Notes under the pieces: generated by a model
What the model was told of the DNA's origin: nothing
The model's input: the letters and a program-made list of their open reading frames with translations, nothing else
The model's database searches: none
Made by a program: the position numbers and the translations under genes
From: Pseudomonas sp. R4-35-07
Lineage (GTDB): Bacteria > Pseudomonadota > Gammaproteobacteria > Pseudomonadales > Pseudomonadaceae
Length of the DNA: 64,000 nt
Reading direction: 5' to 3'
Assembly: GCF_003852235.1 (NCBI RefSeq)
Contig: NZ_CP027732.1
Span: forward strand, 930,001 to 994,000
In this document: one piece after another, positions 8,434 to 26,955 of the stretch
Layout: every line of letters begins with the position of its first letter
Numbering within the stretch: the first letter of the stretch is position 1

Positions 8434-9083
8434 TTGAGCAATCCTTTTGGAGTCAGCGAGCGTTGCAGCCATTGCAAGAGCAGGTCGGCGAAGATGGCCA
8501 GGAGACTGACCAGCACGGCGCCGACGATCAGCATCGACATGTCGCTGCGGCTGATGGAAGCCAGAATAAGTACGCCCAGGCCGCCGGCACCGATGGTGGC
8601 GGAGATGGTCATCACGCCGATGTTCATCACCACGGCGGTGCGCACACCGGCGAGGATCACCGGCACGGCAATCGGCAGCTCGACCATGCGCAGGCGCTGG
8701 GCGAAGGTCATCCCGATGCCCTTGGCGGCTTCGCGAATGCCCGGTTCGACACCGGTGAGCGCCAGGTAGGTGTTACGCATGATCGGCAACAGGGAGTAGA
8801 GGAACACGGCGGTGATCGCCGGCATCGGCCCCAGGCCCTGGCCGAACTTGGAGTAGAACGGCAGCAGCAGGCCGAACAGCGCGATGGACGGTACGGTCAG
8901 CAGCACCGTGGCGCTGGCCTGCAGCGGGCCGGCCAGGGTCGGGAACCGCGTCATCAGGATGCCCAGGGGCACGCCGATCAAGATCGCGAGGACAACCGCG
9001 ACGCCGACCAGGGTGATGTGCTGCCAGGTTAGTTGCAGGACTTGGGCCCAATCAAGGTGGGAAAAGGCGTTGAGAAATTCCAT
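8430..9083 (-). CDS. OpuC-type ABC transporter permease 1
   Basis: 217-residue inner-membrane permease with about five to six helices, for example ITLVGVAVVLAILIGVPLGI and PAITAVFLYSLLPIMRNTYL. The binding-protein-dependent transport loop (EAAKGIGMTFAQRLRMVELP) contacts the ATPase. Its stop overlaps the ATPase start, and its start is 11 bases after the binding-protein stop. OpuC systems use two short permeases that form a heterodimer; the partner is at 10012-10728. Confidence 0.9.
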   Translation of the reverse strand: MEFLNAFSHLDWAQVLQLTWQHITLVGVAVVLAILIGVPLGILMTRFPTLAGPLQASATVLLTVPSIALFGLLLPFYSKFGQGLGPMPAITAVFLYSLLPIMRNTYLALTGVEPGIREAAKGIGMTFAQRLRMVELPIAVPVILAGVRTAVVMNIGVMTISATIGAGGLGVLILASISRSDMSMLIVGAVLVSLLAIFADLLLQWLQRSLTPKGLLK

Positions 9084-11060: not shown

Positions 11061-12644
<1,584 letters not shown>

Positions 12645-12663
12645 GGGCTGAGTGGTAAAGAGA

Positions 12664-12697
12664 TGGGCGAAGCTGTTATGGCTTCGCCCTTTTTTAT
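12664..12697 (+). terminator. Terminator of prfC, hairpin GGGCGAAGC/GCTTCGCCC
   Basis: Stem GGGCGAAGC-TGTTAT-GGCTTCGCCC followed by TTTTTT, 20 bases after the prfC stop. The same hairpin occurs downstream of the genes at 25180 and 25853 (positions 25689 and 26142), so it is a repeated element of this locus. Confidence 0.88.
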
Positions 12698-13336
12698 TGA
12701 GCAAAAATTGAGACTTGGCATCTACAGTAGCCATCATAACCCGCTGTACTTGAGCCATTACCGAGTAATTGTGAGGTGGGTGTTAATTGCAAAAGTTATA
12801 CTTCATAAATGTTGGAGTACAAGATTTTGTAGTCATATTTAATCATTGGGCTCTCAATCGTGGGACATTTCTTACGGGGTTTTGATGGATTAAATTAAAG
12901 TGTGAAGGATTAGGACTACTTAATTTTAGGAGCTCTCTGATTTTTCTTCGGTCGTATTGACTAATTTCCAGTGTTCTTCTAGCTTAATGATCCAATCAAG
13001 TCGAACGAAACAGCTAATGCAATCAGCAATAGTCAGGGTCGTAAATGCACAAGTTATCAAGCTGCCGCTGGCTATGGATTTTGAATCTGACTGAAGTGTT
13101 GTGGCAATGGAAATGATTGTGAAAATATCAATTTCAAAAGTGTCTAGCAGTTAAAAGACGTATCCCCCCCCTATAGAACGGGAGTGGCGAGATTCATAGT
13201 GGATTTGTGAGGTGCGTAAAATCTCTCTATATAACATAGGGATGTTTCTCTGTGCTAGATGGCGATTGCACCTGTTGTTGTTATTTTATGTGTGAGATGA
13301 ATTCACCAGCCTTTTGGAATAGCGCGAGATTCGATC
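12698..13336. other. AT-rich non-coding leader of the island
   Basis: 639 bases that are visibly AT-richer than the flanking chromosome and hold no reading frame I can support on either strand. It begins right after the prfC terminator and ends at the LeuRS start. It presumably holds the promoter of the accessory cluster; TATATAACATAG near 13230 is a possible -10 region. No integrase, tRNA or clear riboswitch fold was seen. Confidence 0.5.
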
Positions 13337-15790
13337 ATGGATAACGATCAGTTTAGAACTAAGTGGCAACAGCGCTGGATGGACGGCAATGTGTTTGTTA
13401 CTGATAGCGTCAGTAACAAACCTCCATATTATGTGTTGGATATGTTTCCGTACCCCTCGGGCAATGGCTTGCATGTGGGGCACGCTGTTGGTTATGTCGG
13501 AACCGATATTGTCGCACGTAAGAAAAGAATGGAAGGTTTCAATGTGTTACACCCCATGGGCTGGGATGCATTCGGTTTACCGGCGGAACAATACGCCATA
13601 AAAACCGGTGTTCATCCTGCTGAAATAACCAAGATGAATTGCGAGGGTTTCAAACGACAACTGAAGCTGATGGGCTTGAGTTACGATTGGAATCGGGAAA
13701 TCGACACATCTAATGCCAAATACTATAAATGGACGCAATTTCTCTTTCTCAAACTGTATGAGCGTGGTTTGGTGTATGAGAAGGAGGAAAACGTCTGGTG
13801 GTGCGAGGTGCTTCAAACCGTTCTCGCCAATGAAGAAGTTATCAATGGGCGTTCTGAACGTGGTGATCACCACTGTATTAAGAGACCACTAAAGCAGTGG
13901 GTCGTCAAGATCACCGAATATGCTGAGCGGTTGTTAGCTGGCCTGGATCAACTCGATTGGCCCGAGTCGGTCAAAAAAATGCAGCGTGAATGGATCGGGC
14001 GCACAGAGGGTATCGATGTCGATCTCCTAATTCAGGAGGACGTGACCAGCCCCTTAACGGTGTTTACCTCAGAAGCCGAAATGCTATACGGCAGCAATGC
14101 CGTCTTCCTATGCACCGAACACCCCTATGTAAAAAAACTCTGTCAGGGTCATGACAGCGACCTCTCCTTCAGGATTGCCGCTTTGCAGGATCCGAAAGTG
14201 ACGGCGGACGGCCTGCCTTTAGATATCCATGCGCGTCATCCACTGACGGGAACATCTCTGCCTATTTATGTCGTCAACTACCTGGCATTCGATGGAAGAG
14301 AACAGGCCATATTCTCTATACCCGACACGGACCTCAAAGCGGCTTCATTGTGCCAGCGCTTCGGCTTGACGCATCTGTCCGTGCTCGATGAGACGGATGC
14401 ACAAGTCGGCCTCAGAAATTCCGCACGCTTTAGCGGTCTCTCTAGAAACGAGGCGCGTGAGCGAATAGAGGCTAACCTCATTGGCGATCATTGCGCTGTT
14501 CGTAAAATTCGTTACCGGATGCGCGATTGGCTGTTCTCCCGGCAAAGGTACTGGGGCGAACCCTTTCCGCTGTATCGAGATGATAACGGCAACGTTATTG
14601 CTGCCAGCCCTAGCGAACTGCCCATCGAGTTGCCGGTAGTTGAGAACTTCCGTCCCGGTGCCGATGGAGCGAGCCCGCTGCAACGTGCTCAGGAGTGGGT
14701 GAACTGCAATGATGCGTCTGGTGATCCACTCTACAGGGTTACGGACACCATGCCCGGGTGGGCAGGGTCGTGCTGGTATTTCTTGCGCTTCATGGACCCA
14801 CATAACGAAGCCGAGCCTTTCTCTGCGCAGAGTATGGAGTATTGGAAACAGGTCGATCTTTATGTGGGCGGGGCAGCCCATGCGACTATGCACCTGCTCT
14901 ATGCCAGATTCTGGCACAAGGTATTGTTCGATGTGGGGCTGGTGAGTTTCGATGAGCCCTTCAAGACACTCTATAACCAAGGTTTGGTGACGGCAGATGC
15001 GTTCAAGGATGGAACCGGCCGCATTGTTGCCGTGGATGAAGCCGAGTACCGGGCAGGCAAATATTGGTTAAAAAACAGCAACCACGAGTTGCAAGTCTTC
15101 AACACCAAAATGTCGAAATCCCTTTTAAATGTGGTAGTACCAGACGACATCATTCGTGAGTACGGTGTCGACACCTTCCGGATTTACATGATGTTCATGG
15201 GGCCGCTCGGACAGAACAAGAAGTGGGACATTAAGGGTATCAAAGGCTGTGAGCGCTTCCTCAACAGGGTGCTGAATCTTTTCGCTGAAGGCCTTGAGTC
15301 TGGCACTCCGCGTAGCGAATCTACGGCTTCGGAGCAGCATCCGCTGGAGGCGCTGTGGGGGAAAACCCTGGCCAAGGTCGATGCATCCTTTGTGACCTTG
15401 AATTTTAATACGGCGATTGCCGCGTTTATGGAATTCATGAATCAGGCCGAGAAACATAAGGGCTATTTTTTCGAACGGATTGGCGCTGATTTCGTGAAGG
15501 CCCTGTTCCCCTTTGCTCCGCACATCGGCTCTGAAATCTGGGAACGGTTGGGCTATCACACTATTGACTCTGCACCATGGCCCCAGGCTCGAGTGCGTCC
15601 GGTCAAGGCGACGCGGATCTACATCGATGGCAAGTATGTGGATGACCTGATAGAGGGGACCGGCGAGGAATTGGTCGACGTCGATTTGGCTCGGAGCAGA
15701 GTCATCAAGGCCCTTGAAGGGCATGCAGTGATCAAGGTGATCTATGTGCCGAACCAGATCGTGAACTTTCTCTGCGCTCATGAGGACTGA
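13337..15790 (+). CDS. Second leucyl-tRNA synthetase, editing site degenerate
   Basis: Class I synthetase of the LeuRS family, 817 residues against about 860-870 for housekeeping copies. The HIGH motif is HVGH (46-49) and KMSKS is at 591-595, so the aminoacylation core looks functional. By-eye alignment to E. coli LeuRS shows the CP1 editing pocket has lost key residues: the TTRPDT motif reads FTSEAEM (243-249, Met for the Thr252 equivalent) and VPGHDQRD reads IPDTDLKA (Ala335 for Asp345). Zinc-site cysteines (CCWRC) read RSERG. A second LeuRS heading an accessory gene set is typical of self-resistance (as in agrocin 84 producers); supplying leucyl-AMP or Leu-tRNA to biosynthesis is the alternative. 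Weak RBS; AT-rich codon use. Confidence 0.93.
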   Translation: MDNDQFRTKWQQRWMDGNVFVTDSVSNKPPYYVLDMFPYPSGNGLHVGHAVGYVGTDIVARKKRMEGFNVLHPMGWDAFGLPAEQYAIKTGVHPAEITKMNCEGFKRQLKLMGLSYDWNREIDTSNAKYYKWTQFLFLKLYERGLVYEKEENVWWCEVLQTVLANEEVINGRSERGDHHCIKRPLKQWVVKITEYAERLLAGLDQLDWPESVKKMQREWIGRTEGIDVDLLIQEDVTSPLTVFTSEAEMLYGSNAVFLCTEHPYVKKLCQGHDSDLSFRIAALQDPKVTADGLPLDIHARHPLTGTSLPIYVVNYLAFDGREQAIFSIPDTDLKAASLCQRFGLTHLSVLDETDAQVGLRNSARFSGLSRNEARERIEANLIGDHCAVRKIRYRMRDWLFSRQRYWGEPFPLYRDDNGNVIAASPSELPIELPVVENFRPGADGASPLQRAQEWVNCNDASGDPLYRVTDTMPGWAGSCWYFLRFMDPHNEAEPFSAQSMEYWKQVDLYVGGAAHATMHLLYARFWHKVLFDVGLVSFDEPFKTLYNQGLVTADAFKDGTGRIVAVDEAEYRAGKYWLKNSNHELQVFNTKMSKSLLNVVVPDDIIREYGVDTFRIYMMFMGPLGQNKKWDIKGIKGCERFLNRVLNLFAEGLESGTPRSESTASEQHPLEALWGKTLAKVDASFVTLNFNTAIAAFMEFMNQAEKHKGYFFERIGADFVKALFPFAPHIGSEIWERLGYHTIDSAPWPQARVRPVKATRIYIDGKYVDDLIEGTGEELVDVDLARSRVIKALEGHAVIKVIYVPNQIVNFLCAHED

Positions 15791-15889
15791 GTCTAGCAGG
15801 GGTGGTATTCGATCCGAATGACGTACGCGGTATTGGGATTAATCCCGTTACCGAAGACGGTATGCCCATTACATAAAAATAAGAGTCAT

Positions 15890-17014
15890 ATGAACGATAA
15901 AATTAACCACCAATTCGGCACCATCGTTGCGTTGTTTATGTGTGGCATGATTTCCCTTCATGGTGGAATCACCTTGCTTTACTTAAGCATGACCAGCGTA
16001 GCCTCGACCTCCCAAGAAATTCTGATACTTTATTTGTCGGGTTGCCTGGGTATAGTGTTGATTCCTTTGGTGGGAGCAAGTTGTGAGCGGGTGGTATTAG
16101 TGGCCTTGGCAGCCAAGGTACTATTAGTGTCCTGTGCATTGTTGACAGGCAGCGTGTGGACCATTCCAGAAGCGCTGTGCTCAGGGCTAATTGCGTCATC
16201 GAGCTTCTATTTTGCAATGCGCGAGGTCTCAAAAAGTCAGAACGGCAAATTACTTGTGTCAATGCTGATCCTGATCATTAACATTGAGTCTTTGGTCTGG
16301 TATGCCGCGCTCGGCTGGCTCTCTGAGTTGCAATCTCCGATGTGGCTGTCGTTCGCCTATGGAATAGCAACAATTCTGCCATTGCTCTATATCGGTACGT
16401 TTGTCAGTACTGCAGTTACCCAGCGCGTCGACATTAAGCATCTGCTAGATCTGAGCAAGTCGCTTAAGCACTATAATTTGAACTGTTACATGCTTGCAGT
16501 GTTTGTGGTCAATTGCTTCAACTTGTCGCTCCATCACTGGGCAAAACTTGATGAGCAGCATTGGTGGGGCAGTATTCCTGGCATTACCGGATTCTATATT
16601 CTCGGCATTCTGTCCAGCGTCGCATTATTGTCCAGGCTGAAAGTTCGCAATGAGAAGCTATTGATTGTGGCACTGGTTGGTCTTTGCGCTATAGCGTACT
16701 GGCTTGGTGGAGGCGCTACCCAAGACTCCCTCCTGCTGATAGCAGCCGTTTTCGGGTTGGGTGTCACAAGTACACTGGTCATGTCATCAATAGTTGCGGA
16801 TCTCGTGAAAACGCATGACAGCCTCAGCCGCCTATTGGTGGTGGCTGTTCTGGCAGCGATGCAAGTTTGTTTGATCTCGTTGATCCGCATCGCCGAAGTA
16901 TTCGCCGAAAGCGTTGTCAATGAATGGCAAGTGATTGCAGTAGCAGGTGTTGCATTGATCGTGCTAAAAATTCGTCAGCTTTGCATTGAAGGTTTTTTAT
17001 TCAAGCCGCAATAG
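15890..17014 (+). CDS. MFS-like efflux transporter of the accessory cluster
   Basis: 374-residue polytopic membrane protein with ten to twelve predicted helices (for instance IVALFMCGMISLHGGITLLY, VVLVALAAKVLLVSCALL, LLIVALVGLCAIAYWLGGG). The overall helix pattern resembles a major facilitator permease, but I see no clear signature motif A. It lies 99 bases after the LeuRS and before the methyltransferase in the same direction, so export of the cluster product is the natural reading. ATG 15890 is chosen because it starts just before the first helix and has AAGAG upstream; an upstream ATG at 15818 would add an unlikely Pro-rich extension. Confidence 0.7.
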   Translation: MNDKINHQFGTIVALFMCGMISLHGGITLLYLSMTSVASTSQEILILYLSGCLGIVLIPLVGASCERVVLVALAAKVLLVSCALLTGSVWTIPEALCSGLIASSSFYFAMREVSKSQNGKLLVSMLILIINIESLVWYAALGWLSELQSPMWLSFAYGIATILPLLYIGTFVSTAVTQRVDIKHLLDLSKSLKHYNLNCYMLAVFVVNCFNLSLHHWAKLDEQHWWGSIPGITGFYILGILSSVALLSRLKVRNEKLLIVALVGLCAIAYWLGGGATQDSLLLIAAVFGLGVTSTLVMSSIVADLVKTHDSLSRLLVVAVLAAMQVCLISLIRIAEVFAESVVNEWQVIAVAGVALIVLKIRQLCIEGFLFKPQ

Positions 17015-17141
17015 CGCCGTTCGGCGATTAAAGTAAGTACTTTATACCACTACCCTAGAAGGAGTTGTCGGAGGATATCGGGCTGTAAACGTTGTATTAA
17101 ATCTGCGCGAAAAGCGCTTTTATGGAAAGGAAACTATATAT

Positions 17142-17954
17142 ATGACCATCGACTCTCGTCGCGTCAATGAAATGAGCTACACGGAATTTGTAGCCTTCAT
17201 TAACCAAACCAATGTGCCGCCAGGCTCTTACAGCACTCTGACAAAATGGCGCAATAACTCCAACCTTAACGCCGAGTCGCGGGTATTGGAAGTGGCCTGT
17301 ACAACAGGATTTTCCATTAACTCGCTCGTGAAAGAGTCCGGCTGCGAGGGTGTGGGGATCGACTTGTGCAATGACTCCATCAAGCAAGCGCGGCTGAATG
17401 CCGAACAGATGGGGCTTGGCGACAATGTCCAATTTACGGCCATTGACGGAACGAAGTACGAATCCCCCGAGAAATTTTCTCATGTTGTGGTCGGCGCCGG
17501 ACTGGGATTTTTCCCCCAGCCTGAGAAGATGGTCGAGAATATCTGTCGTTTATTCAAAGAGTCGGGCTATCTACTGGCCTCGCCATTTTATACCGTTAAC
17601 GATATTCCCGAGAAAATGCTGACTCAGGCGGCCAAAGTGTTCGGCATCACACCTACAGTTCAGCCTTATAAAGAAGTCATGCAACTGTACAAAGGTTTTG
17701 AAGTGTATTTTGAGGAACGTTTGCTACCCTTACAGGAAACAGAAAGAGAGCTACACCATTATTGTGAATCTACTGTAGAGCGCGCCAGCCACTCATACCA
17801 CTTGGAGGATGAGTCTATAAAGTCGGCAATGTACGATAGACTGTATAGCATCAAGAAAATGTCAAACGCTCTTCGCCAATATCAAGGTTACAATGTTCTC
17901 ATTTTACATTATGATTCCCGGCACTATCCAAATCGTTATGTAGAGTTATTTTAA
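17142..17954 (+). CDS. Class I SAM-dependent methyltransferase
   Basis: 270 residues. SAM motif I is VLEVACTTGF (48-57), where Ala-Cys-Thr replaces the usual GCG of this family, followed by the acidic ribose-binding residue in GIDLCNDS and a motif II/III region (VVVGAGLGFFPQPEKMVENI, then LLASPF). These are features of UbiE/type-11 small-molecule methyltransferases. RBS AAGGAAA is 8 bases before the ATG. Substrate unknown; in context it should modify an intermediate of the cluster product. Confidence 0.85.
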   Translation: MTIDSRRVNEMSYTEFVAFINQTNVPPGSYSTLTKWRNNSNLNAESRVLEVACTTGFSINSLVKESGCEGVGIDLCNDSIKQARLNAEQMGLGDNVQFTAIDGTKYESPEKFSHVVVGAGLGFFPQPEKMVENICRLFKESGYLLASPFYTVNDIPEKMLTQAAKVFGITPTVQPYKEVMQLYKGFEVYFEERLLPLQETERELHHYCESTVERASHSYHLEDESIKSAMYDRLYSIKKMSNALRQYQGYNVLILHYDSRHYPNRYVELF

Positions 17955-18113
17955 GAAAATCGCGGCCAACTCAAATTGTAAATTTTATTCTTCGGGAAAT
18001 GCTCTAGTTTTGGTTAGTCAAACCAGCGTAGCTCTTTGTCTGGATTCTACTGATCTTAATGAAGGGGCCGCGACCTCCCCTAAAAGTAGCAAGCAACGGC
18101 GGTGGGTACAAAA

Positions 18114-18614
18114 ATGATCTTGACTGGACAAAAAATTATAGATTCTGTCGATAATGGTGATATCACGATTTCCAATTTTGATTGCTTACGTGTAAATCCT
18201 AACAGCTATAACTATTTGCTGGGGGACGAAATTAAGGTCTTCAGTGGAAAAGCCTCTGATGGTTCTCCGACATTCGATACCGTCAAACTGAAAGAAGAGG
18301 GGTATGTGTTGCGCCCCGGCGCCATGTATTTGGGCGTTACCGATGAAATTCTTGGCAGTACGCTATACGCAATGTCACTAATTGGTAGAAGTTCTATGGG
18401 GCGCTTGGGTTTGTTCTTGCAAATATCGGCCAACCTCGGACACACCACATCCAGCCATCAATGGACTCTAGAGTTACACGCTGCGAGAGCAATACGGGTC
18501 TACCCAAAGATGCCAATTGGACAAGTTTCATTTTGGAAGAATGATGGAAGCATCCAGTGCTTGGGTAAAACCTATGCCCTTTATAATAGTCCCACGGAGA
18601 GGCTGCCAGCATGA
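18114..18614 (+). CDS. dCTP-deaminase/dUTPase-superfamily protein 1, catalytic Asp missing
   Basis: 166 residues with the trimeric dCTP deaminase fold: N-terminal MILTGQKIIDSVDNGDITI, NPNSYNYLLG, the core GRSSMGRLGLFLQISAN (91-107) and the catalytic-type Glu in WTLEL (E120). E. coli Dcd has HRIDPGW between these; here it reads NLGHTTS, so the conserved Asp is His110. The neighbouring paralog has the complementary defect. Dcd deaminates dCTP to dUTP; the substrate here may be another cytosine nucleotide. ATG 18114 is preferred over GTG 18102 because both paralogs then start MILTG. Overlaps the next gene by ATGA. Confidence 0.85.
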   Translation: MILTGQKIIDSVDNGDITISNFDCLRVNPNSYNYLLGDEIKVFSGKASDGSPTFDTVKLKEEGYVLRPGAMYLGVTDEILGSTLYAMSLIGRSSMGRLGLFLQISANLGHTTSSHQWTLELHAARAIRVYPKMPIGQVSFWKNDGSIQCLGKTYALYNSPTERLPA

Positions 18615-19129
18615 TTCTTACAGGAAGTAAAATACGCGATGAGGTAGTTGCTGGAAATATTGTCGTTGAACCTTTCAATGATGCTCAACTGTCTACTAAC
18701 TCATATGACCTTCGCTTGGGCTATAAATATCTTAAATATGAGAGTGGGGTAATTGATCCTAAAAGACAGCACGCCTACGACATTCATGATATTCCTGAGT
18801 GCGGATTACAGTTGGAGGCAGGCGAGTTTTTGCTCTCAGAGTCTCTAGAGGTGATCGGTAGTAATCACTTTGTTCCCATCATCCACGCAAAATCCGGCAC
18901 CGCCAGAGCAGGCTTGTTCGTACATATCACCGCCGACCTGATAGATATCGGTTCAATCGGAAAAACTACGTTCCAGTTATATGCCACTTTGCCGATCAAG
19001 GTATACCCGGAGATGCTCCTGGCCCAAGTTTCATTTTGGCGTCCGGAAGGCGTTATTACGTTGTATCAGGGGAAATATCAAAATGCGACTGGACCGCAAC
19101 CTTCCAAAACCTATCAGGACTACATGTGA
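18611..19129 (+). CDS. dCTP-deaminase/dUTPase-superfamily protein 2, catalytic Glu replaced by Gln
   Basis: 172 residues, a tandem paralog of the preceding protein. It shares MILTGSKIRDEVVAGNIVV, STNSYDLRLGY, and KSGTARAGLFVHITADLIDIG (94-114). It keeps the Asp of the DxG motif (D112) that its neighbour lacks, but the essential Glu (E138 in E. coli Dcd) is Gln122 in TTFQLYA. It is therefore unlikely to be a conventional deaminase alone. Start overlaps the previous stop (ATGA) and its stop overlaps the next start (TGATG), indicating translational coupling and probably stoichiometric co-expression. Confidence 0.85.
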   Translation: MILTGSKIRDEVVAGNIVVEPFNDAQLSTNSYDLRLGYKYLKYESGVIDPKRQHAYDIHDIPECGLQLEAGEFLLSESLEVIGSNHFVPIIHAKSGTARAGLFVHITADLIDIGSIGKTTFQLYATLPIKVYPEMLLAQVSFWRPEGVITLYQGKYQNATGPQPSKTYQDYM

Positions 19130-19554
19130 TGGTAAAAGTAATGGCTTCAAACCTACACTTCAGCGCCACCGATTTGGATATGTTACCTATTACCGATCTG
19201 GCGAGCTTCAGCCGCGTTGATGATTCTGCGGTCCTTATTGATCTGCTTCAGGACACCGTCGGTGAGTCGCAAGCCCATGATATTGCCATGTTGCTACCTG
19301 ACCACTACAAAGCGATCTACTTGCGCAAGGACATTGTTTTCATCAAAGCTAATTTACAGGAGTCGTTGCGGCCGCACTTGGCGCCAGAGCTCTTGCACTC
19401 GCTGATGAACGAGCTGTGCAGTGCTATGGATCTTTTCTCCCTGCTCACGCGGGATGAGAAACCCTTGGTGTCTTTGCGCATGGTAACAGAGGAATACGTT
19501 GCAAGGAGTATCCGTCCGTCAGCCAGTATTACCACCGGGATGCCGCTGCCATGA
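19129..19554 (+). CDS. Hypothetical protein, resembles N-terminal part of DUF1826
   Basis: 141 residues with no confident family. The C-terminal part (LLHSLMNELCSAMDLFSLL, then VSLRMVTEEYVARSI) follows the pattern of the middle of DUF1826 proteins, where a helix is followed by a RL-V-D strand and an FHVD motif; here that motif is not conserved. The following gene matches the C-terminal part of DUF1826, and the two overlap by ATGA, so together they look like one DUF1826-like protein encoded by two genes. No signal peptide or membrane helix. Function unknown. Confidence 0.6.
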   Translation: MVKVMASNLHFSATDLDMLPITDLASFSRVDDSAVLIDLLQDTVGESQAHDIAMLLPDHYKAIYLRKDIVFIKANLQESLRPHLAPELLHSLMNELCSAMDLFSLLTRDEKPLVSLRMVTEEYVARSIRPSASITTGMPLP

Positions 19555-19898
19555 CCCTGACCAAGTGTTTCTATGGTGAGGGCGCGATTTATATTCGGGA
19601 GAAAAACACTAAGCGTGATTACTTCCAGGCGAACTCCATTGCATTAAATGACGCCGACGCGGCTTACGATGACGCCGATTTTCATGTGGTGCCTCCCTCG
19701 AAGTGGGTATTGCTCAAGGGAGAGATGTACGAGGGAATTGATTCCCGAAATCAGTCGGTTATCGATATCGTCCTTGGCGAAAAATCGCAGTTCAGGGACT
19801 TTGCCAAGGGCAAGGGGTTGATCCATAAAGGTGGGCGATTTATCGATACTGATCGACGCCTGGTATTCACCCTCAGCACCTACAAGACGGAGTTCTGA
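19551..19898 (+). CDS. Hypothetical protein, resembles C-terminal part of DUF1826
   Basis: 115 residues. Segments CFYGEGAIYI, VPPSKWVLLKGEMYEG and KGLIHKGGRF with RRLVFTLST follow the order and spacing of DUF1826 C-termini (TTY-GPGTEWL; LLKGE; LVHRSP; RRLLLTLD). This is a by-eye resemblance to a family of unknown function, so the call is tentative. Its start overlaps the previous stop (ATGA) and its stop overlaps the next start (TGATG). It may work as a complex with the preceding product. Confidence 0.6.
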   Translation: MTLTKCFYGEGAIYIREKNTKRDYFQANSIALNDADAAYDDADFHVVPPSKWVLLKGEMYEGIDSRNQSVIDIVLGEKSQFRDFAKGKGLIHKGGRFIDTDRRLVFTLSTYKTEF

Positions 19899-20812
19899 TG
19901 AAAAATATAATCCTTGGAACCTGGCAGGTAGGGGGCGACAGCTGGTCGACGGTCAATAGCTGGAAAGCCTATGAAACGCTGTTTTTTGCCATCGATCAAG
20001 GCATTGAGCGGATAGATACAGCGCCTACCTATGGGAACGGTCGTTCGGAGAAATTAGTCGGTGAAGTGATTCGGCATTTTAGTAATCGGAAGCTCAAAGT
20101 CATCAGCAAAGTGCCCCCCGATATGATGACTCGTGCCAAGGTGGTCGAAAGTATCGAAGGCAGTTTGACACGGCTTGGAGTGAACCAACTGGACACATTG
20201 CTGATTCATTGGCCGGCCGGGACCATGGGAACCGATTCAGTGCCACTGGAGGAAACCCTATGGGCCTTGGAGTTGGCGAAAAGCTCCGGACTCACGAAAA
20301 AGATCGGGGTTTGCAATTATAACCTAGCCGATCTTGAGTACATCGACAGTCAGTTGAAAATGGACTGCCTCCAATATGCCTACTCGTTGTTCTTCCGAGG
20401 CGTGGAGTTCGGAATCAGCCAGTTTGCGGAAGCTCGTGGCATTGAGCTGATGGGGTACTCCACGCTAGCCCAAGGCATCTTGACTGATCGTCCAGACTTC
20501 GCGGGATTCTCCAGCGATGACCATAGAAATTATGTCGTCTTGTTCGCGGAAAAACATCGACGACGTATCCAGCATATGTTGCAGGCGCTCAGAGCTGCTC
20601 TGCCTCAGGGCGTAGGCCTGAGCAACCTCGCGGTAAGCTGGGTGCAATCAAAAGGAGTAACCCCCATTCTTGGGTTGCACACCCCTGAGCATTTGGACGC
20701 CTTCCGCAATGGCCGCGTGTCAGATGAAATTTTGCTGGAGGCGGCGGACGTAATTTCTAGGGAGTTCAAGGCTGAACTGGGGCCGCGTCTTTCACTGTGG
20801 GGTGATGCATGA
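19898..20812 (+). CDS. Aldo/keto reductase of the accessory cluster
   Basis: 304-residue NADPH-dependent (beta/alpha)8 oxidoreductase. The catalytic tetrad is complete: Asp40 and Tyr45 in DTAPTYGNG, Lys71 in VISKV and His104 in LLIHWP. The C-terminal SNLAVSWVQSKGVTPILG segment is the usual cofactor-binding region. It overlaps both neighbours by one to four bases (TGATG, ATGA) and is thus embedded in the cluster operon. Probably reduces a carbonyl of a pathway intermediate. Confidence 0.92.
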   Translation: MKNIILGTWQVGGDSWSTVNSWKAYETLFFAIDQGIERIDTAPTYGNGRSEKLVGEVIRHFSNRKLKVISKVPPDMMTRAKVVESIEGSLTRLGVNQLDTLLIHWPAGTMGTDSVPLEETLWALELAKSSGLTKKIGVCNYNLADLEYIDSQLKMDCLQYAYSLFFRGVEFGISQFAEARGIELMGYSTLAQGILTDRPDFAGFSSDDHRNYVVLFAEKHRRRIQHMLQALRAALPQGVGLSNLAVSWVQSKGVTPILGLHTPEHLDAFRNGRVSDEILLEAADVISREFKAELGPRLSLWGDA

Positions 20813-21171
20813 CTGAATTGCATTTGGCCATCAGGACCGTAAATCCCGAGGGCATGATCAGGTTCTACCAAGAGGTGTTCGATTTCCATGTAGTGGAAGA
20901 CTTTACTGCCAGTGATGGCTCGTTTCGCATTTACTTTCTATCAGATTCTCAGCAACGCAAACTTGAGCTGATCGTCAATCGAGAGCCATCCTCTCCAGAA
21001 AAGGGCAGCACATTGTCTCACTACGGTTTTTTCGTTGATGACTATCACCGTGTGCTGTCGGCTTGTCAGGCTGCTCAGCTACCGGTTCTGGAAGAAAAGC
21101 TCGTCAATGGGCTCTGGCAGTTCTACGTCCAGGATCCGGATGGACACTACGTGGAAGTGAATCAAGTCTAA
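20809..21171 (+). CDS. VOC/glyoxalase-fold metalloprotein
   Basis: 120 residues containing two beta-alpha-beta-beta-beta modules of the vicinal oxygen chelate fold. The four expected metal ligands are present: His5 (LHLAI), Glu53 (LELI), His71 (SHYGFFV) and Glu116 (HYVEVNQ), with the DPDGHYVE signature. This argues for a functional enzyme (isomerase, epimerase, dioxygenase or lyase) and not a binding-only VOC protein. Start overlaps the reductase stop (ATGA). Confidence 0.88.
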   Translation: MTELHLAIRTVNPEGMIRFYQEVFDFHVVEDFTASDGSFRIYFLSDSQQRKLELIVNREPSSPEKGSTLSHYGFFVDDYHRVLSACQAAQLPVLEEKLVNGLWQFYVQDPDGHYVEVNQV

Positions 21172-21218
21172 TTCTGCTGACAGTACAGGCTGTAAAACGA
21201 CTGACGAGGTGTATGAGG

Positions 21219-22007
21219 ATGAGGGATGCAGGCTTAGTAATTGTCGGGTGTGTTGTACAGCCCGGAGAGCATTACCAATTCAGCGACCGGGGTAGTTCAA
21301 CCTGCGCGTTTTGTATTCACGGCCGCCCCGGTAACAGTCTGTTGATGGAACCCTTCGATACCTGGTGTGCGGAACAGTCTTACGACTGTTACCGCTATGA
21401 CCAGTTCTCGTGCCGAGACAGAGAAGGTTTTCACGGCGATTCGAAACAGCTGCTCGCCATACTGGTTGAGGAACTGTTCCTGCATCTCAGTAAGTTCAAG
21501 GACCGAGATTTGCTCATCGTGGCTCACTCCTTCGGTGCTGTGCTGCTCTGTGAAACCTTGCTGAGATACGAGCTTTCACAGCAAAGATTTAAAATCGTGC
21601 TGTCAGGCTTCTGTCCCGAGCGTGAAGAGTTCCTGCTGGCCAACCAGAAGCGCCTGGATGGCTATGCTCGCGAGGGCGACGAGCATGACGTTGAGCACAG
21701 GTTCTTCGATGCGCATATCTGCGGCACACGATTTCTGAGCGCTGAACAGCTCCAAGCATTTCAAGTGCCGCCGATGGGAAACATCAGCTTGCGCGACTCC
21801 TATCTCGGCCTACTCAGCGCCATAAGGTGTCCGGTGTTAATCACCTACGGAAGCGAAGATATTTGCAGTGACTATCAGGTCGCCAAAACCTGCGAGTGCT
21901 TGGTGGATTGCCGGGTTGTCCAACTTTCCGGGGCCGCACATTACCCGTTCATTGAGCGGACACAGGCCTACTTCCAAGAGCTCGACCGTTTCATGAGCAC
22001 CGGATGA
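21219..22007 (+). CDS. Alpha/beta hydrolase (thioesterase/peptidase-like)
   Basis: 262 residues of alpha/beta-hydrolase fold. Nucleophile elbow VAHSFG (Ser104), acid in TYGSEDI (Asp214) and base in SGAAHYPF (His241), and an HGRPGNS oxyanion-loop segment near residue 34. ATG 21219 is chosen over 21213 because GAGG (21206-21209) is 9 bases away; the longer frame reads back into the VOC gene. It could release, cyclise or hydrolyse a pathway intermediate. 47 bases separate it from the VOC gene. Confidence 0.85.
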   Translation: MRDAGLVIVGCVVQPGEHYQFSDRGSSTCAFCIHGRPGNSLLMEPFDTWCAEQSYDCYRYDQFSCRDREGFHGDSKQLLAILVEELFLHLSKFKDRDLLIVAHSFGAVLLCETLLRYELSQQRFKIVLSGFCPEREEFLLANQKRLDGYAREGDEHDVEHRFFDAHICGTRFLSAEQLQAFQVPPMGNISLRDSYLGLLSAIRCPVLITYGSEDICSDYQVAKTCECLVDCRVVQLSGAAHYPFIERTQAYFQELDRFMSTG

Positions 22008-22113
22008 GATAACGAGTTCACAACGTTTACCTTTTTTCTTATTAAGTACGACCTTGAGCCGCCCTCGCGCGTGGGGCACCTAGCCACGGAGTTTTGCCAA
22101 GGAGATTGGCGTT

Positions 22114-23367
22114 ATGCGTAATATATTAGTTATCGGTGATTCTTACGTAGATACCGAGTTTTTCAACGCAAACACTCGATGGTTTCACATCGGCCAGGAA
22201 CCACCAGCGCTTAAGTTGACCGCCTCCAGAAGACTGTACTTGGCGGCTCAATTCGATGTCGAGCAGTACGACAAAAAGCTGCTAGAAATATTTCTTTTTT
22301 GCAACGAGATCATTTTTGGGTTTGGCAAGATCGACTACGTGATCGCCAACACCGAGTACAGTATTTTGTGTGGTGCGGCGGTTCGTGAACATTACGAAAT
22401 ACTTGGTCGCCGGCTAGGCGATGTGGCCATGTTTAGAAATAAGTATCTAATGAAATCGGCGCTTGCGCTTCAGAACGAGGTCGAGACTAGTCGTTTTGTT
22501 GGTGGCGTACGGTTAGCTACAGAGGGAATGACTGCGGTTTTGAGAGTCTTTGCCCCAAGTGAATATCCACTGGTGATTAAGGCAACGTCCCAGGCTGGGA
22601 GTCGGCATGTTTACGTGGTTCAAGATGCGCTGGAGCTAGCGGAGAAAATGCAGGAGCTCAAGGTCCTCGGGATCGAGTATTTGGTGGAGCAGTTTGTCGA
22701 TGCGCCGGTCATTCATATTGACGGGGTCTGTCGCGGGGGAGAGTTGCTGTTTGTCTGTGCATCCCGCTACCTGGATGATTGCTATGCCTGGCAGCATGAA
22801 AAAATCGCCATGTCTTCAGTGCTGATCGATGAGCCTGCGCTTCAGAAAGCCATCGTGCAGTTCACGCAATCCACGCTTTCCTCATTAAACGCCCGAGATT
22901 TAGTCTTTCATCTTGAAGCCTTTTTACTTCCCGATAAGAGCTTGGTGTTTTTGGAAATCGCTTCGCGTCCCGGTGGCGCCGCAATAGTACCTTGCATCAA
23001 AAGTATCTATGGCGTGGACCTGCAGGAGGAGAACTTCAAAGTGGAGGTAGAGGCTCCCTCTGTCTTGAGCTCTTCCGGATTTCTTGGAGCGCATGTGAGC
23101 AAGTCCGGAGGCTGGATCGTGCTGGCTTTACCCGAAATGTCATGGTGCGAAGTATTGTCGGTTCAGGGCGATCCTCCGCTGGGCGAGCATGTGGCGTGGA
23201 GAAAAGTTGTCGCTGTCGGCACCCGCTACAACTCGGATTATTTTGAAGATCCGGCTGTGGGGATGTTCGTCGTACGCCACGTCAGCGCAACACAGGTGGC
23301 GGCGAGTATTCAGCGGATCAAGGAAGAGTTTTCCATTGAGGTGCTACGACTGGAGCACTCCCTATGA
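22114..23367 (+). CDS. ATP-grasp ligase of the accessory cluster
   Basis: 417 residues with a preATP-grasp Rossmann-like N-terminus (MRNILVIGDSYVD) and an ATP-grasp domain: ATP-binding Lys in PLVIKATSQAGS (K156), hinge VEQFVDAPVI, and metal-binding Glu268 (FHLEAF) and Glu281 (EIASRPGG). Family members couple a carboxylate to an amine or thiol through an acyl phosphate; L-amino-acid ligase/dipeptide synthetase is the closest type. A good AAGGAG lies 9 bases before the ATG. Its stop overlaps the AlaRS-like start, linking an amide-forming enzyme with a synthetase-like protein. Confidence 0.88.
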   Translation: MRNILVIGDSYVDTEFFNANTRWFHIGQEPPALKLTASRRLYLAAQFDVEQYDKKLLEIFLFCNEIIFGFGKIDYVIANTEYSILCGAAVREHYEILGRRLGDVAMFRNKYLMKSALALQNEVETSRFVGGVRLATEGMTAVLRVFAPSEYPLVIKATSQAGSRHVYVVQDALELAEKMQELKVLGIEYLVEQFVDAPVIHIDGVCRGGELLFVCASRYLDDCYAWQHEKIAMSSVLIDEPALQKAIVQFTQSTLSSLNARDLVFHLEAFLLPDKSLVFLEIASRPGGAAIVPCIKSIYGVDLQEENFKVEVEAPSVLSSSGFLGAHVSKSGGWIVLALPEMSWCEVLSVQGDPPLGEHVAWRKVVAVGTRYNSDYFEDPAVGMFVVRHVSATQVAASIQRIKEEFSIEVLRLEHSL

Positions 23368-24512
23368 CGCAGCTACTTCAGCCAACCAGTAACAAACGCG
23401 AACTCGATACTCTGACTGCTCATTTTACCGCCACGGCCTCAGAGTTCGGTTTTATCCATGCGCCACCGACGCCATTGCTCAGCGATGATGAAACCCTGCT
23501 CTTCGCCAACTCCACGATTGCGGGCTACAAGCAGCACCTGGTCGAAGGGCAACTTCCGTTTCCAGGCTTTTGGATTGTTCAAGAGTGCATCAGGAATAAG
23601 AATCTCAAAAGCATCAGGAACTGGGACGAAGAGCTTGAGTACATGAGCTGCTTCACACAGTTAGGGGTTTTGGGCTGCCCGAAGTCATTGCCACGGATTC
23701 TCGAGTTCATTACCTATTACCTTGCGAGTATCAGTAATCGCCAGCACCTGCTTTGTCGGGTGAGTCGCTCGCTTGCGCTGTATGAGCCAGTCACCCGAAA
23801 CTTTGATGCCTGGCAGATTGAGACCGATGGGCGTTCGCCCGGTTACTACCATTGGCAATATGGCCTGGAGGGCGTGAAAGGAGAAGGCGTTACCTTCGCC
23901 GTTCTTGATCAGGGGCTGGGCGGCTATCGGGACATTGGTAACCTTATTGAGATCAGCGACAGTACGGGTGTGCTGGGTTACGAATTCGGGTTCGGAGCGG
24001 AGACTCTGAACTCTCGGCTTCGAGGTCTGGACTCACCCTTCGAATCCTGCCTGTTACTTGATTATCTGGATATGAGAAATGAGCCGCTTCTGAAAAGGAA
24101 AGTGCTCGACTCACTAATGCTCGCCGCAACGCTATGTGCCATCGGTGTGGATGAGACGACACTCAAACGCGCTTCGATCCTAAGACGCGTCATGAATGAT
24201 CTGTTTTACCTGACTTATTTGTGTCAATTGGAGCCGCAGTCAATCCTGGCGATTGGGAGGGAATACCTTCACCTCAAGGGTATGGTCGAAAGGCATTTTA
24301 TACGAACCTTTGCCATCTTTGAGAGACGAGTCGGAATAAAAATCAACCGGGCTCGACAGTACATCGACTATACGACGATGCACGATAAATCTTGGGACCG
24401 TGCACGCCGACATTGTGTGGAACGAATAGGCATTCCCACCGTTTATTTCGAGAAAATATTCGAACCGCAACTAAGTTTGATCAGGCCAATTGATGAAATG
24501 CAAAAACAATAA
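23364..24512 (+). CDS. Alanyl-tRNA-synthetase-like catalytic domain protein
   Basis: 382 residues that follow the AlaRS catalytic core in order: DDETLLFANSTIAGYK matches the DPTLLFTNAGMNQFK region, FWIVQECIRNKNL (69-81, Arg77) matches motif 2, GYEFGFGAETLNSRL (205-219) sits at motif 3, and TLKRASILRRVMNDL matches the RGYVLRRIIRRA helix. Motif 3 GLGLER is GFGAET, so the ATP-binding Arg is Thr214. The editing and C-terminal domains are absent. It is therefore not a housekeeping enzyme; it may activate an amino acid or transfer aminoacyl groups for the pathway, or be a decoy subunit. Overlaps the ATP-grasp gene (ATGA). Confidence 0.72.
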   Translation: MTQLLQPTSNKRELDTLTAHFTATASEFGFIHAPPTPLLSDDETLLFANSTIAGYKQHLVEGQLPFPGFWIVQECIRNKNLKSIRNWDEELEYMSCFTQLGVLGCPKSLPRILEFITYYLASISNRQHLLCRVSRSLALYEPVTRNFDAWQIETDGRSPGYYHWQYGLEGVKGEGVTFAVLDQGLGGYRDIGNLIEISDSTGVLGYEFGFGAETLNSRLRGLDSPFESCLLLDYLDMRNEPLLKRKVLDSLMLAATLCAIGVDETTLKRASILRRVMNDLFYLTYLCQLEPQSILAIGREYLHLKGMVERHFIRTFAIFERRVGIKINRARQYIDYTTMHDKSWDRARRHCVERIGIPTVYFEKIFEPQLSLIRPIDEMQKQ

Positions 24513-24528
24513 TCATAGGAAGTGAGTC

Positions 24529-24660
24529 ATGAAAATTATCATCTTTTTACTGACACTGGTTCTCGCCGTCATTTCTATATTTGTAATTGCTCACGGTGGC
24601 CGTACCGATAAGCAGGGCTACCACAATGACAAGAAGACTGGGGCACTACACTGCCACTGA
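24529..24660 (+). CDS. 43-residue membrane-anchored YHYH-type small protein
   Basis: Short gene with AGGAAGTGA just before the ATG, 16 bases after the AlaRS-like stop. The product has one N-terminal hydrophobic helix (IIIFLLTLVLAVISIFVIA) followed by HGGRTDKQGYHNDKKTGALHCH. This His-rich tail matches the YHYH-type module found in many small exported Pseudomonas proteins (HxGRTDxxGCH...KTGxxHCH), which could bind a metal. One Cys of the usual pair is Tyr here. It may be part of the cluster or a passenger. Confidence 0.75.
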   Translation: MKIIIFLLTLVLAVISIFVIAHGGRTDKQGYHNDKKTGALHCH

Positions 24661-24751
24661 GCTCCATGGCCCTTCGCTCAGAGGGGCCTGGTAGGAGGAG
24701 GTCCGTATGGGGCTTAAGAAACCGAATCACCAGCTACGGCGTGACTTGAAA

Positions 24752-24924
24752 GATTGCAGCGGTAAGAAGAAGTTGGAAGAGTTCTCCAACAAAGCGGTGG
24801 AAAACCTGGCGATCGACGGCTGTGGTCACCTGACTTACCTGGCGCCGCCCCGGATCAACCTGGCGCTAATGGAAGAGCGCTCTGGCCAGATGTGAAATTC
24901 CGTGCGACGCGTGAGCACCATTGA
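24752..24924 (+). pseudogene. Diverged remnant of the prfC 3' end
   Basis: Corresponds to the last ~170 bases of prfC (12474-12644). By my count about 17 substitutions and one 2-base insertion (CTC in GAGCGCTCTGG) separate them, roughly 90% identity. Most differences are silent third-position changes, so this copy diverged while it was still coding, presumably in another strain. The insertion shifts the frame and the final stop is lost (CATTGA for CATTAA). It marks the right end of the accessory cluster, opposite the intact gene. Confidence 0.9.
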
Positions 24925-24954
24925 TTTAGGCCTCTGATTTTTAGCAACTAACTG

Positions 24955-24988
24955 AAAGCCCTAAAGATTTTATCTTTAGGGCTTTTTT
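24955..24988 (+). terminator. Terminator after the prfC remnant
   Basis: Stem AAGCCCTAAAGAT/ATCTTTAGGGCTT followed by TTTTTT, 31 bases after the remnant. Its sequence differs from the GGGCGAAGC hairpin behind intact prfC, consistent with a tail brought in from (or left by) a different lineage. Confidence 0.82.
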
Positions 24989-25179
24989 GTGGCTTCGTAA
25001 ACGGCTAAGAGTCAACTGTGAAGTTTGACAGTAGATTTTTATGGTGTTCAGCCGTTATATAGGCAGGGAGGTCGTGAGGCCTACCGTCAGTGCTTATAAG
25101 CAGAAGTTAAATAGCATGTTCTTGGTTCGGGATTTGGTACAGAACTTTATATCAGGCTACCCAGCATGGAGATTGGATC

Positions 25180-25599
25180 ATGGTCAGTCATGAGGAAAAA
25201 CAGGTACAGAATGCTACCGGGCATTTTGAATATCGTTTTGAAGGCGGGGGGCTTGTAACCCCGCAGTATAAGTACGTATATCTTCAAGAGGGGCCGCAAC
25301 CGATTCCACCGATTTTTAAAGGTCGGGATACTCAAAATAGTATTCGTGAAACGGGCCTTACCTTCATATTCAACTCGTATGATTTTTGGGGTGTCAATGT
25401 TCCTGTCGGTCAGGGATTCACTGTGCAGCATTGGGCAGCAGGGAGCAGTACTGAAGTTAAGTCTGGTTTTGTTACTGGAATGATAAATCCTTCAGGTAAA
25501 GCCGGATTTTTTAAGTTTGAGCTCAATGTGGATGTTCAGGGTTCGACGAAACGCGTCGAAGGGTTCTTTATACTGAAGCAAAACGTTGCTGCATTATAG
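25180..25599 (+). CDS. Hypothetical protein, island orphan
   Basis: 139 residues, AT-rich, unlike its dpp neighbours in codon use. It has no signal peptide, no membrane segment and no recognisable motif. Alternating hydrophobic stretches (TGLTFIFNSYDFWGVNV, AGFFKFELNVDVQG, VEGFFILKQNV) suggest an all-beta sandwich. It lies between the prfC remnant and the third prfC-tail copy, so it looks like a separately acquired cargo gene. Function unknown. Confidence 0.6.
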   Translation: MVSHEEKQVQNATGHFEYRFEGGGLVTPQYKYVYLQEGPQPIPPIFKGRDTQNSIRETGLTFIFNSYDFWGVNVPVGQGFTVQHWAAGSSTEVKSGFVTGMINPSGKAGFFKFELNVDVQGSTKRVEGFFILKQNVAAL

Positions 25600-25651
25600 T
25601 CTTGAAAGGCTCTCTCGCCTGGCTCCAGCATTGGGCATCAGGTGATAATGG

Positions 25652-25718
25652 AAGGTGAGCATCATTAAGATCTTAGCAGTTGAGAGAAGGGCGAAGCTGT
25701 AATGGCTTCGCCTTTTTT
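25652..25718 (+). repeat. Third copy of the prfC tail and terminator
   Basis: GTGAGCATCATTAAG matches the last codons of prfC (GTGAGCACCATTAAG) at 14 of 15 positions, followed at the same distance by the GGGCGAAGC-TGTAAT-GGCTTCGCC hairpin and T-run (25689-25718). The coding part is otherwise gone. This looks like a further junction of stacked insertions at the prfC end; the hairpin probably also terminates the gene at 25180. Confidence 0.65.
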
Positions 25719-26844: not shown

Positions 26845-26955
26845 GATCGTTCCCACGCTCCGCGTGGGAATGCATCCCTGACGCTCTGCGTCACCTCAAC
26901 GGCGGGACGCGGAGCGTCCTAGGCGGCATTCCCACGCGCAGCGTGGGAACGATCG
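26845..26955. repeat. GTTCCCACGC-type inverted repeat element
   Basis: Outer arms CGTTCCCACGCTCCGCGTGG and its inverse CACGCGCAGCGTGGGAACG, each itself a small hairpin, surround a middle with GACGCTCTGCGTC and GGACGCGGAGCGTCC. The same element occurs at 50617-50729. It touches the dppF stop codon, and could act as its terminator or mRNA 3'-end stabiliser. Confidence 0.8.

Follow-up and report, generated by a model that had tools for sequence, protein, structure and literature searches.

A rare gene cluster of Pseudomonas sp. R4-35-07 with a second leucyl-tRNA synthetase and an MccD-family transferase: a candidate locus for an aminoacyl-nucleotide-like inhibitor

Pseudomonas sp. R4-35-07 (genome 5.84 Mb) carries a compact gene block that probably directs the synthesis of a small molecule that resembles an aminoacyl-nucleotide and inhibits leucyl-tRNA synthetase (LeuRS). 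The block was analysed in a stretch of 64,000 nucleotides, referred to as the window (NZ_CP027732.1, positions 930,001 to 994,000), and all coordinates are those of the window; the 64-kb window lies within one contig. We assign a probability of about 0.6 to the reading, drawn from sequence comparison, that the locus is a cousin of the agrocin 84 and microcin C loci that would use a different enzyme set and that its extra LeuRS would provide immunity. According to the listing of open reading frames (ORFs), the ORFs for twelve proteins lie at 13337-24512, all on the forward strand. The most informative gene of the cluster is one for a methyltransferase-like protein. An initial annotation of the block had proposed a nucleotide- or amino-acid-derived antimetabolite against LeuRS, from which the LeuRS paralog would protect the producer, and comparison supported this, as agrocin 84 plasmids and a Xenorhabdus cluster also combine MccD-type and LeuRS genes. 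A broken gene and the information held by the 'methyltransferase' had been missed.

The MccD-type transferase and its kin clusters

The gene at 17142..17954 was assigned by sequence to the MccD family of S-adenosylmethionine (SAM)-dependent transferases (MT), based on solved relatives, plasmid matches, a profile and a tree. The best solved relative was MccD of microcin C (5fcd, E 5.3e-20); the next was about 14 orders weaker (3.9e-6). A profile of window-type MTs, run on 26 rows, matched MccD at ~2e-44; the six remaining MTs from clusters scored 1e-27 to 9e-32 and six unrelated methyltransferases 4e-6 or weaker. MccD is described in part of PMC10491745 as putting an aminocarboxypropyl/aminopropyl group on the phosphate of microcin C. 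MccD-like proteins of ~50% identity (P0046, P0069, P0071, P0112 and P0041) were also seen in Moranbacteria, WWE3, Uhrbacteria, one unplaced member of the Patescibacteria and a metagenome-assembled genome (MAG) of Parachlamydia.

Of 72,556 plasmid records, 37 had a match that covered 80% or more of the MT. They comprised 27 E. coli records and one Salmonella record of microcin C type and six records of pAgK84 type; Peribacillus, Exiguobacterium and Xenorhabdus contributed a single record each. Gene content was examined in six of the 37, and the rest, 27 of microcin type and 4 of agrocin type, were typed by listing. An AgnA-type gene was present in five of the six examined records and ThiF in the sixth; LeuRS or alanyl-tRNA synthetase (AlaRS) was found in five, as was S66. 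The examined E. coli record held mccA directly before ThiF.

pAgK84 (L066) contained AgnA, MT, LeuRS and S66, and CFBP5877 was alike. The megaplasmid of Xenorhabdus bovienii CS03 (L074) held an AgnA-like protein, MT, S66, a nucleoside phosphorylase, two VOC-type proteins, LeuRS, a PF00587 synthetase-like protein, a major facilitator superfamily (MFS) protein, an aldo/keto reductase (AKR) and a short-chain dehydrogenase/reductase (SDR). The window and Xenorhabdus reductases showed no tblastn match below 0.01 and no specific likeness. In Peribacillus (L068), ATP-grasp, MFS, a 595-aa AlaRS, an AlaRS-like protein, MT, an AgnA-like protein and S66 were present. Exiguobacterium (L069) showed an AlaRS-like protein, MT, an AgnA-like protein, two ATP-grasp matches and a 595-aa AlaRS, with no S66 within the stretch shown. 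A Bacteroidales contig (L045) combined AlaRS-like and AgnA-like proteins with AlaRS, S66 and MT; since a second AlaRS start was found on another contig of this MAG, the AlaRS of the cluster is probably extra. Streptomyces NBC_01707 held an AgnA-like protein, MT (67% cover), S66 and a PF00587 protein. LeuRS was found at L066, L074 and L075 and AlaRS instead at L045, L068 and L069. The plasmid LeuRS neighbourhoods of Paenibacillus, Anoxybacillus, Sinorhizobium, A. tumefaciens G3/79, Parabacteroides, Pasteurella and Monoglobus were rejected as kin; that of Subdoligranulum bears no annotation and was set aside.

The second leucyl-tRNA synthetase

The first gene, leuS2 (13337..15790), encodes a second LeuRS of 817 aa (LeuRS2; TIGR00396, 840 bits, cut-off 548), and another LeuRS is encoded elsewhere in the genome. 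The motifs of the synthetic site were intact in the window and in the relative Pseudomonas batumici. Both editing motifs were gone in the window, with TTRPDT changed to TSEAEM and HDERD to TDLKA; among 13 LeuRS rows, the loss of both was confined to the window and P. batumici. LeuRS2 is likely a self-immunity factor. The known counterpart is AgnB2, the LeuRS immunity protein of agrocin 84, of which positions 42, 102, 413 and 573 are linked to resistance according to PMC5059758. Descent of LeuRS2 from AgnB2 was rejected, with one origin recovered in 0% of 200 bootstrap trees. The cluster LeuRSs of the window, pAgK84 and Xenorhabdus needed three changes on the same 13-row tree, in which branches are long and exact placements unsure.

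The paired Dcd-like proteins

Two adjoining genes encode Dcd-like proteins, dcdA (18114..18614; PF22769, 86 bits) and dcdB (18611..19129; PF22769). Against TIGR02274, with a curated cut-off of 92.8, DcdB scored 98.0 bits and DcdA 48.3 bits. The ordinary Dcd chemistry expected in the initial annotation finds no support in the residues. We take the Glu at the aligned position to be catalytic in Dcd and the C-terminal tail to be nucleotide-binding. With the Glu position set by alignment with solved Dcd, the Glu (WTLE) was kept in 6/6 A-type chains, from which the Asp motif ADLID and the KYQ..GPQ tail were absent. The B-type chains had Gln at the Glu position in 7/7 and kept both the ADLID motif and the tail, which reads KYQ..GPQPS in DcdB of the window. 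These counts leave out the pair of Streptomyces NBC_00161 (L085, two aligned chains, a misfit) and the A chain of R. sullae, which was not aligned. Neither DcdA nor DcdB unites Glu and tail in one chain, and the full residue set is thus found in neither.

Dcd pairs were found in Pseudomonas, Rhizobium and actinomycetes. DcdA matched 22 plasmid records, ten of them with two places and one with three. The Rhizobium and actinomycete pairs (L081-L084, L086, L114) showed the same complementary residue losses as the window pair and differed in their neighbours. Synthetase-like genes were present in only one of six examined Dcd-pair plasmid regions, that of Streptomyces NBC_00239 (L114), and the other five had none. 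In L114, ~13 kb held the Dcd pair, a TauD-type oxygenase, a protein of prolyl-tRNA synthetase (ProRS) architecture, an S66 peptidase and a PF00152 protein; the last had no BLAST match to AgnA at 1e-3. This region hints, independently of the window, at loci of aminoacyl-nucleotide type.

A class I methyltransferase just 3' of Dcd pairs recurred in plasmids of Streptomyces, Nonomuraea and Rhizobium (L082, L084, L081, L086), with glycosyltransferases in the actinomycetes. As candidates for MccD kin these methyltransferases were rejected, as the window-type MT profile showed them not to be MccD-like.

The AlaRS-like protein, the ATP-grasp ligase and the membrane protein

The last gene of the block (23364..24512) encodes a protein of 382 aa that resembles the catalytic fragment of AlaRS and in which the motif-3 Arg is replaced. 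It has the fold of such a fragment, and its score against PF01411 was 14.2 bits, below the cut-off of 30.3. A single-sequence search of genome contigs with this protein gave no match; a later profile scan of 84,980 species genomes, which may exclude the window's own genome, gave three loci, in P. batumici, Pseudomonas sp. FEN and one Bacteroidales MAG. In tblastn against plasmids, neither this protein nor the oxygenase described below had a match. Across the class, the profile matched in 328/369 genomes. Apart from the window's own, the matches listed were rejected as kin, being housekeeping AlaRS: they spanned just the N-terminal third, approximately, of the profile, and nearly all lay in frames of AlaRS length. 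Five of 13 AlaRS-like homologues appear, from contigs of equal length, to co-occur with an MT match, as counted within the best 120 of 344 MT homologues, and seven of 13 when the oxygenase is included.

The ATP-grasp gene (22114..23367; PF13535, 28 bits, cut-off 27) precedes the AlaRS-like gene. Its product matched the L-amino acid ligase 4wd3 (E 9e-13 over residues 67-314) and BacD (3wo1, E 0.003), and by sequence it is a ligase of the L-amino-acid-ligase type. Behind leuS2, a polytopic membrane protein is encoded at 15818..17014 (likely start 15890). It is 76% identical to the P. batumici copy and has ~10 membrane segments by hydropathy. The window copy had no Pfam match and the P. batumici copy just a sub-threshold match to DUF4305. 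Given no family match and ~10 transmembrane segments, it is assignable only as transporter-like. The export by an MFS protein that had been proposed therefore loses its family basis. The remaining family calls stood: LeuRS, ATP-grasp, two DCD proteins and, at 14 bits weakly, AlaRS.

The broken oxygenase gene

The ORFs 19129-19554 and 19551-19898 matched one P. batumici protein in different frames. Of the homologues listed, all 23 were single chains (238-259 aa; 13 of 255 or 256 aa), in a search that admitted only 0.55-1.75x the query length and that split copies could therefore escape. As both halves match one relative in different frames and the homologues are single chains, the two ORFs are one frameshift-split gene (19129..19898) for a Fe(II)/2-oxoglutarate (2OG) oxygenase of the DUF1826 type. 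The pattern HxD...H is the iron triad of Fe(II)/2OG oxygenases. Across 16 aligned members, H150-x-D152 and H247 were invariant and R258 nearly so. The P. batumici oxygenase was modelled with a mean pLDDT of 79.6 (five models, 63-80), and all 50 rows shown by Foldseek with this model were of the Fe(II)/2OG oxygenase fold, at a modest TMq of 0.32-0.45. The P. batumici protein and its relatives thus have both the triad and the fold. As they stand, the window ORFs carry the HxD motif in neither piece and lack the triad. The frameshift may be an assembly error rather than real.

Composition, conservation and rarity of the block

Read in this way, the block holds, on its sequence, eleven genes, one of them broken, rather than twelve. 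All twelve ORFs of the initial annotation are present, and two of them are halves of one split gene. Its description as a same-strand, AT-rich block was borne out, with a gene GC of 0.45-0.53 and 0.58-0.64 in 39/50 of the 1-kb bins outside 13-27 kb. Most junctions had been said to overlap; with likely starts, 6/11 do, one of them as an artefact of the oxygenase break. Pfam and NCBIfam families among the twelve proteins were LeuRS, class I methyltransferase, two DCD, AKR, glyoxalase, alpha/beta hydrolase and ATP-grasp. Three further genes complete the block. An aldo/keto reductase (19898..20812; PF00248, 164 bits) is followed by a VOC/glyoxalase-like protein (20809..21171; PF00903, 58 bits) and an alpha/beta hydrolase with an uncertain start (21213..22007; PF12697, 31 bits for the longer ORF 21063-22007). 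The hydrolase is 77% identical to its P. batumici copy and had no solved relative at E 0.001. At 24513-24660, 3' of the AlaRS-like gene, the sole ORF noted was one of 43 codons (24529-24660) with a membrane-like start and no convincing family.

The block was found in the same order in P. batumici (L039), at 71-91% protein identity and with the oxygenase intact. The P. batumici copy lies at a different site, with different flanking ORFs and no prfC match in the 19.5 kb of sequence examined there. Third codon positions made up 49-72% of the differences between the window and P. batumici in each of the ten pieces measured, a set outside which the membrane protein and the hydrolase lie; for the 3' half of the broken oxygenase the value was 72%. 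The conserved order together with the third-position bias argues that the block is more than a chance assembly. Pseudomonas sp. FEN (L040) holds a third copy, which is truncated where its contig stops; the ATP-grasp gene (7614-8863) is read in two frames, and the genome had no MT match at 1e-10 with the profile.

The cluster is rare. ATP-grasp matches of at least 70% were present in 3/398 Pseudomonas genomes, and any match at E 0.001 in 56/398. The MT profile matched in 2/398 Pseudomonas genomes at 1e-20 and in 1/369 genomes of the Gammaproteobacteria at 1e-14; among viral contigs it had no match. The initial annotation had known of no described cluster with this gene set, and in the open-access literature searched, outside which subscription papers mostly lie, no matching cluster was found.

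Insertion at prfC

The block is best read, from its flanks, as part of an insertion of ~13.0 kb (12643-25654) at the 3' end of prfC. The left edge is marked by the prfC 3' end (12467..12642, direct repeats D1/D3). A partial second copy of this end lies inside the insertion (24745..24922, D1/D3, 88-89% identity) and a third copy, consisting of the last prfC bases and the terminator, at the right edge (25655..25718, D2, 83%); all three are on the forward strand. Eighteen same-genus loci at the prfC end were compared to 1.5 kb past it. In G017 (L095), prfC runs straight into sequence matching the window from 25657 onwards; in G004 (L096), sequence matching from 25751 onwards follows after ~0.6 kb of other DNA. 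The insertion reading follows from this continuity of the right flank past prfC in the two genomes. L102 had just one short match further on, and the remaining prfC loci none beyond the prfC copy. No integrase family was found among the insertion proteins scanned.

The three partial prfC 3'-end copies mark an insertion hot spot, and the relative G005 (L099) has a short second prfC copy just past prfC. The same insertion contains an ORF of 139 aa (25180-25599) with no Pfam match. Further on, a 29-nt inverted repeat (26845-26873 / 26926-26954; 97% complementary, 52 nt apart) is REP/BOX-like by appearance.

Discussion

In the pathway proposed here, the Dcd pair would act as a heteromer on a pyrimidine nucleotide and supply or alter the nucleotide half of the product. 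The reductase, the VOC protein and an intact Fe/2OG oxygenase would shape a leucine-like acid. The role of AgnA or MccB would fall to the AlaRS-like protein, which would activate this acid and join it to the nucleotide, and the MccD-like enzyme would alkylate the phosphate or an equivalent site. The ATP-grasp ligase would add an amino acid or peptide, possibly for uptake or masking. The membrane protein would export the product and LeuRS2 would keep the producer alive. Because the oxygenase gene is broken, the step to the leucine-like acid may be blocked in this strain. A more specific version, in which the antibiotic would form a class of its own, holds that a former AlaRS joins the leucine-like acid to a nucleotide from a split, heteromeric Dcd with the catalytic Glu on one chain and the nucleotide-binding tail on the other, that LeuRS2 is immune through its lost editing site, and that the AlaRS and ProRS clusters are siblings directed against other synthetases. 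In this full form the scheme is doubtful.

Agrocin 84 is one of the nearest known cases. Its agnA is a truncated homolog of asparaginyl-tRNA synthetase (AsnRS) and agnB2 the LeuRS immunity gene, as described in part of PMC4392301. The window shares with pAgK84 a LeuRS paralog, here leuS2 with a predicted immunity role, beside an MccD-family gene (MT E 1e-21), and oxidoreductases. It differs in that its genome is without AgnA and its twelve proteins without S66/AgnC5, in that LeuRS2 arose separately and has none of the residues linked to resistance in AgnB2, and in its extra AlaRS-like, ATP-grasp and Dcd genes. For microcin C, the target of which is aspartyl-tRNA synthetase (AspRS) according to part of PMC10491745, the likeness lies in MccD as the nearest known relative of the MT and in an adjoining membrane transporter gene. 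The difference lies in the lack of ThiF (MccB) and S66 (MccF) among the twelve proteins, in which no MccE-like protein was recognised either. X. bovienii CS03 resembles the window in that a single block combines LeuRS, MccD-like MT, VOC, AKR and MFS with a protein similar to class II synthetases; it has an AgnA-like protein and S66, its synthetase-like protein is of PF00587 rather than AlaRS-like, no Dcd or ATP-grasp gene was listed and its LeuRS is of other origin. Peribacillus, Exiguobacterium and Bacteroidales share the AlaRS-like protein with an MccD-like MT, and the first two also ATP-grasp, whereas AlaRS replaces LeuRS and AgnA homologs are present. As the defining genes are absent, the cluster is not a member of the agn or mcc type; its way of working is probably alike.

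Several observations weigh against a LeuRS inhibitor of this kind. No AgnA (PF00152) homologue was found in the whole window genome with a query that matched 3/3 control records, and PF00152 had no match among the twelve proteins; nor did the S66 (MccF-type) and ThiF (MccB) families. What forms the bond in the known pathways, and what gives MccF-type immunity there, is therefore missing. To our knowledge, agrocin 84 carries no aminopropyl group despite its MccD-like gene, so the reaction of the MT cannot be read from MccD. MT relatives of ~50% identity came from Patescibacteria and a Parachlamydia MAG among the best 120 of 344 homologues, and 7/7 other annotated plasmid LeuRS regions were without such a cluster. 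The replaced motif-3 Arg makes adenylation by the AlaRS-like protein uncertain. In NBC_00239, two minus-strand genes separate the Dcd pair from the S66 and PF00152 genes, and these may therefore not form one cluster. Finally, LeuRS2 has the sensitive-type P, N, R and M at AgnB2 positions 42, 102, 413 and 573 and none of the four resistance residues. With these absent and the editing motifs lost, immunity, if this is the task of LeuRS2, would differ from that of AgnB2.

The same features bear on other roles for LeuRS2. It could be biosynthetic, providing leucyl-tRNA, or an activated analogue of leucine, to a pathway step that depends on tRNA or on an adenylate; the loss of editing, unique to the window type among the 13 rows, would suit the charging of a non-standard amino acid, and the absent AgnB2 residues fit as well. 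We regard this as unlikely, as the twelve proteins include no tRNA-dependent transferase family and the synthetase of the kin clusters varies between LeuRS and AlaRS, as expected of targets. A product that acts on the editing site of LeuRS, or that traps tRNA in this site, would leave LeuRS2 immune with the site destroyed. The loss of both editing motifs with synthetic-site motifs kept, in the window and in P. batumici, would agree with this, but relaxed selection can erase editing in any paralog and the MccD-type gene suggests a mimic of adenylate type that acts at the synthetic site, which makes such a product quite improbable.

Two further explanations concern the block as a whole. In this strain it may be a decayed or silent island, left from a former pathway and now without product. 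The split oxygenase with HxD in neither piece speaks for decay, as do the ATP-grasp gene in two frames and the missing MT of Pseudomonas sp. FEN; the third-position share of differences, 49-72% in ten pieces and 72% even for the 3' piece of the oxygenase, speaks against it, and the frameshift is possibly an assembly error. Decay is thus the less probable case, though a serious one. It is very unlikely that the block is a commonplace resistance or metabolic island with no part in making an antibiotic. Generic families such as the reductase, the VOC protein and the hydrolase are present, but such an island would have no need for an MccD-type transferase, an AlaRS fragment, an amino-acid ligase and a complementary Dcd pair, and those kin clusters whose function is known are antibiotic loci.

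If the reading as an aminoacyl-nucleotide-like LeuRS inhibitor is true, the strategy of agrocin 84 and microcin C would belong to a wider, modular family that spans Pseudomonadota, Bacillota and Bacteroidota and perhaps Actinomycetota. The target and the matching immunity synthetase would be exchangeable in this family, and even the bond-forming enzyme replaceable. The block would offer candidates for an acyl-nucleotide linkage made without AgnA or MccB and for the role of the recurring Dcd-like pairs. It would also be a lead for a LeuRS inhibitor with a target hinted at by its own cluster.

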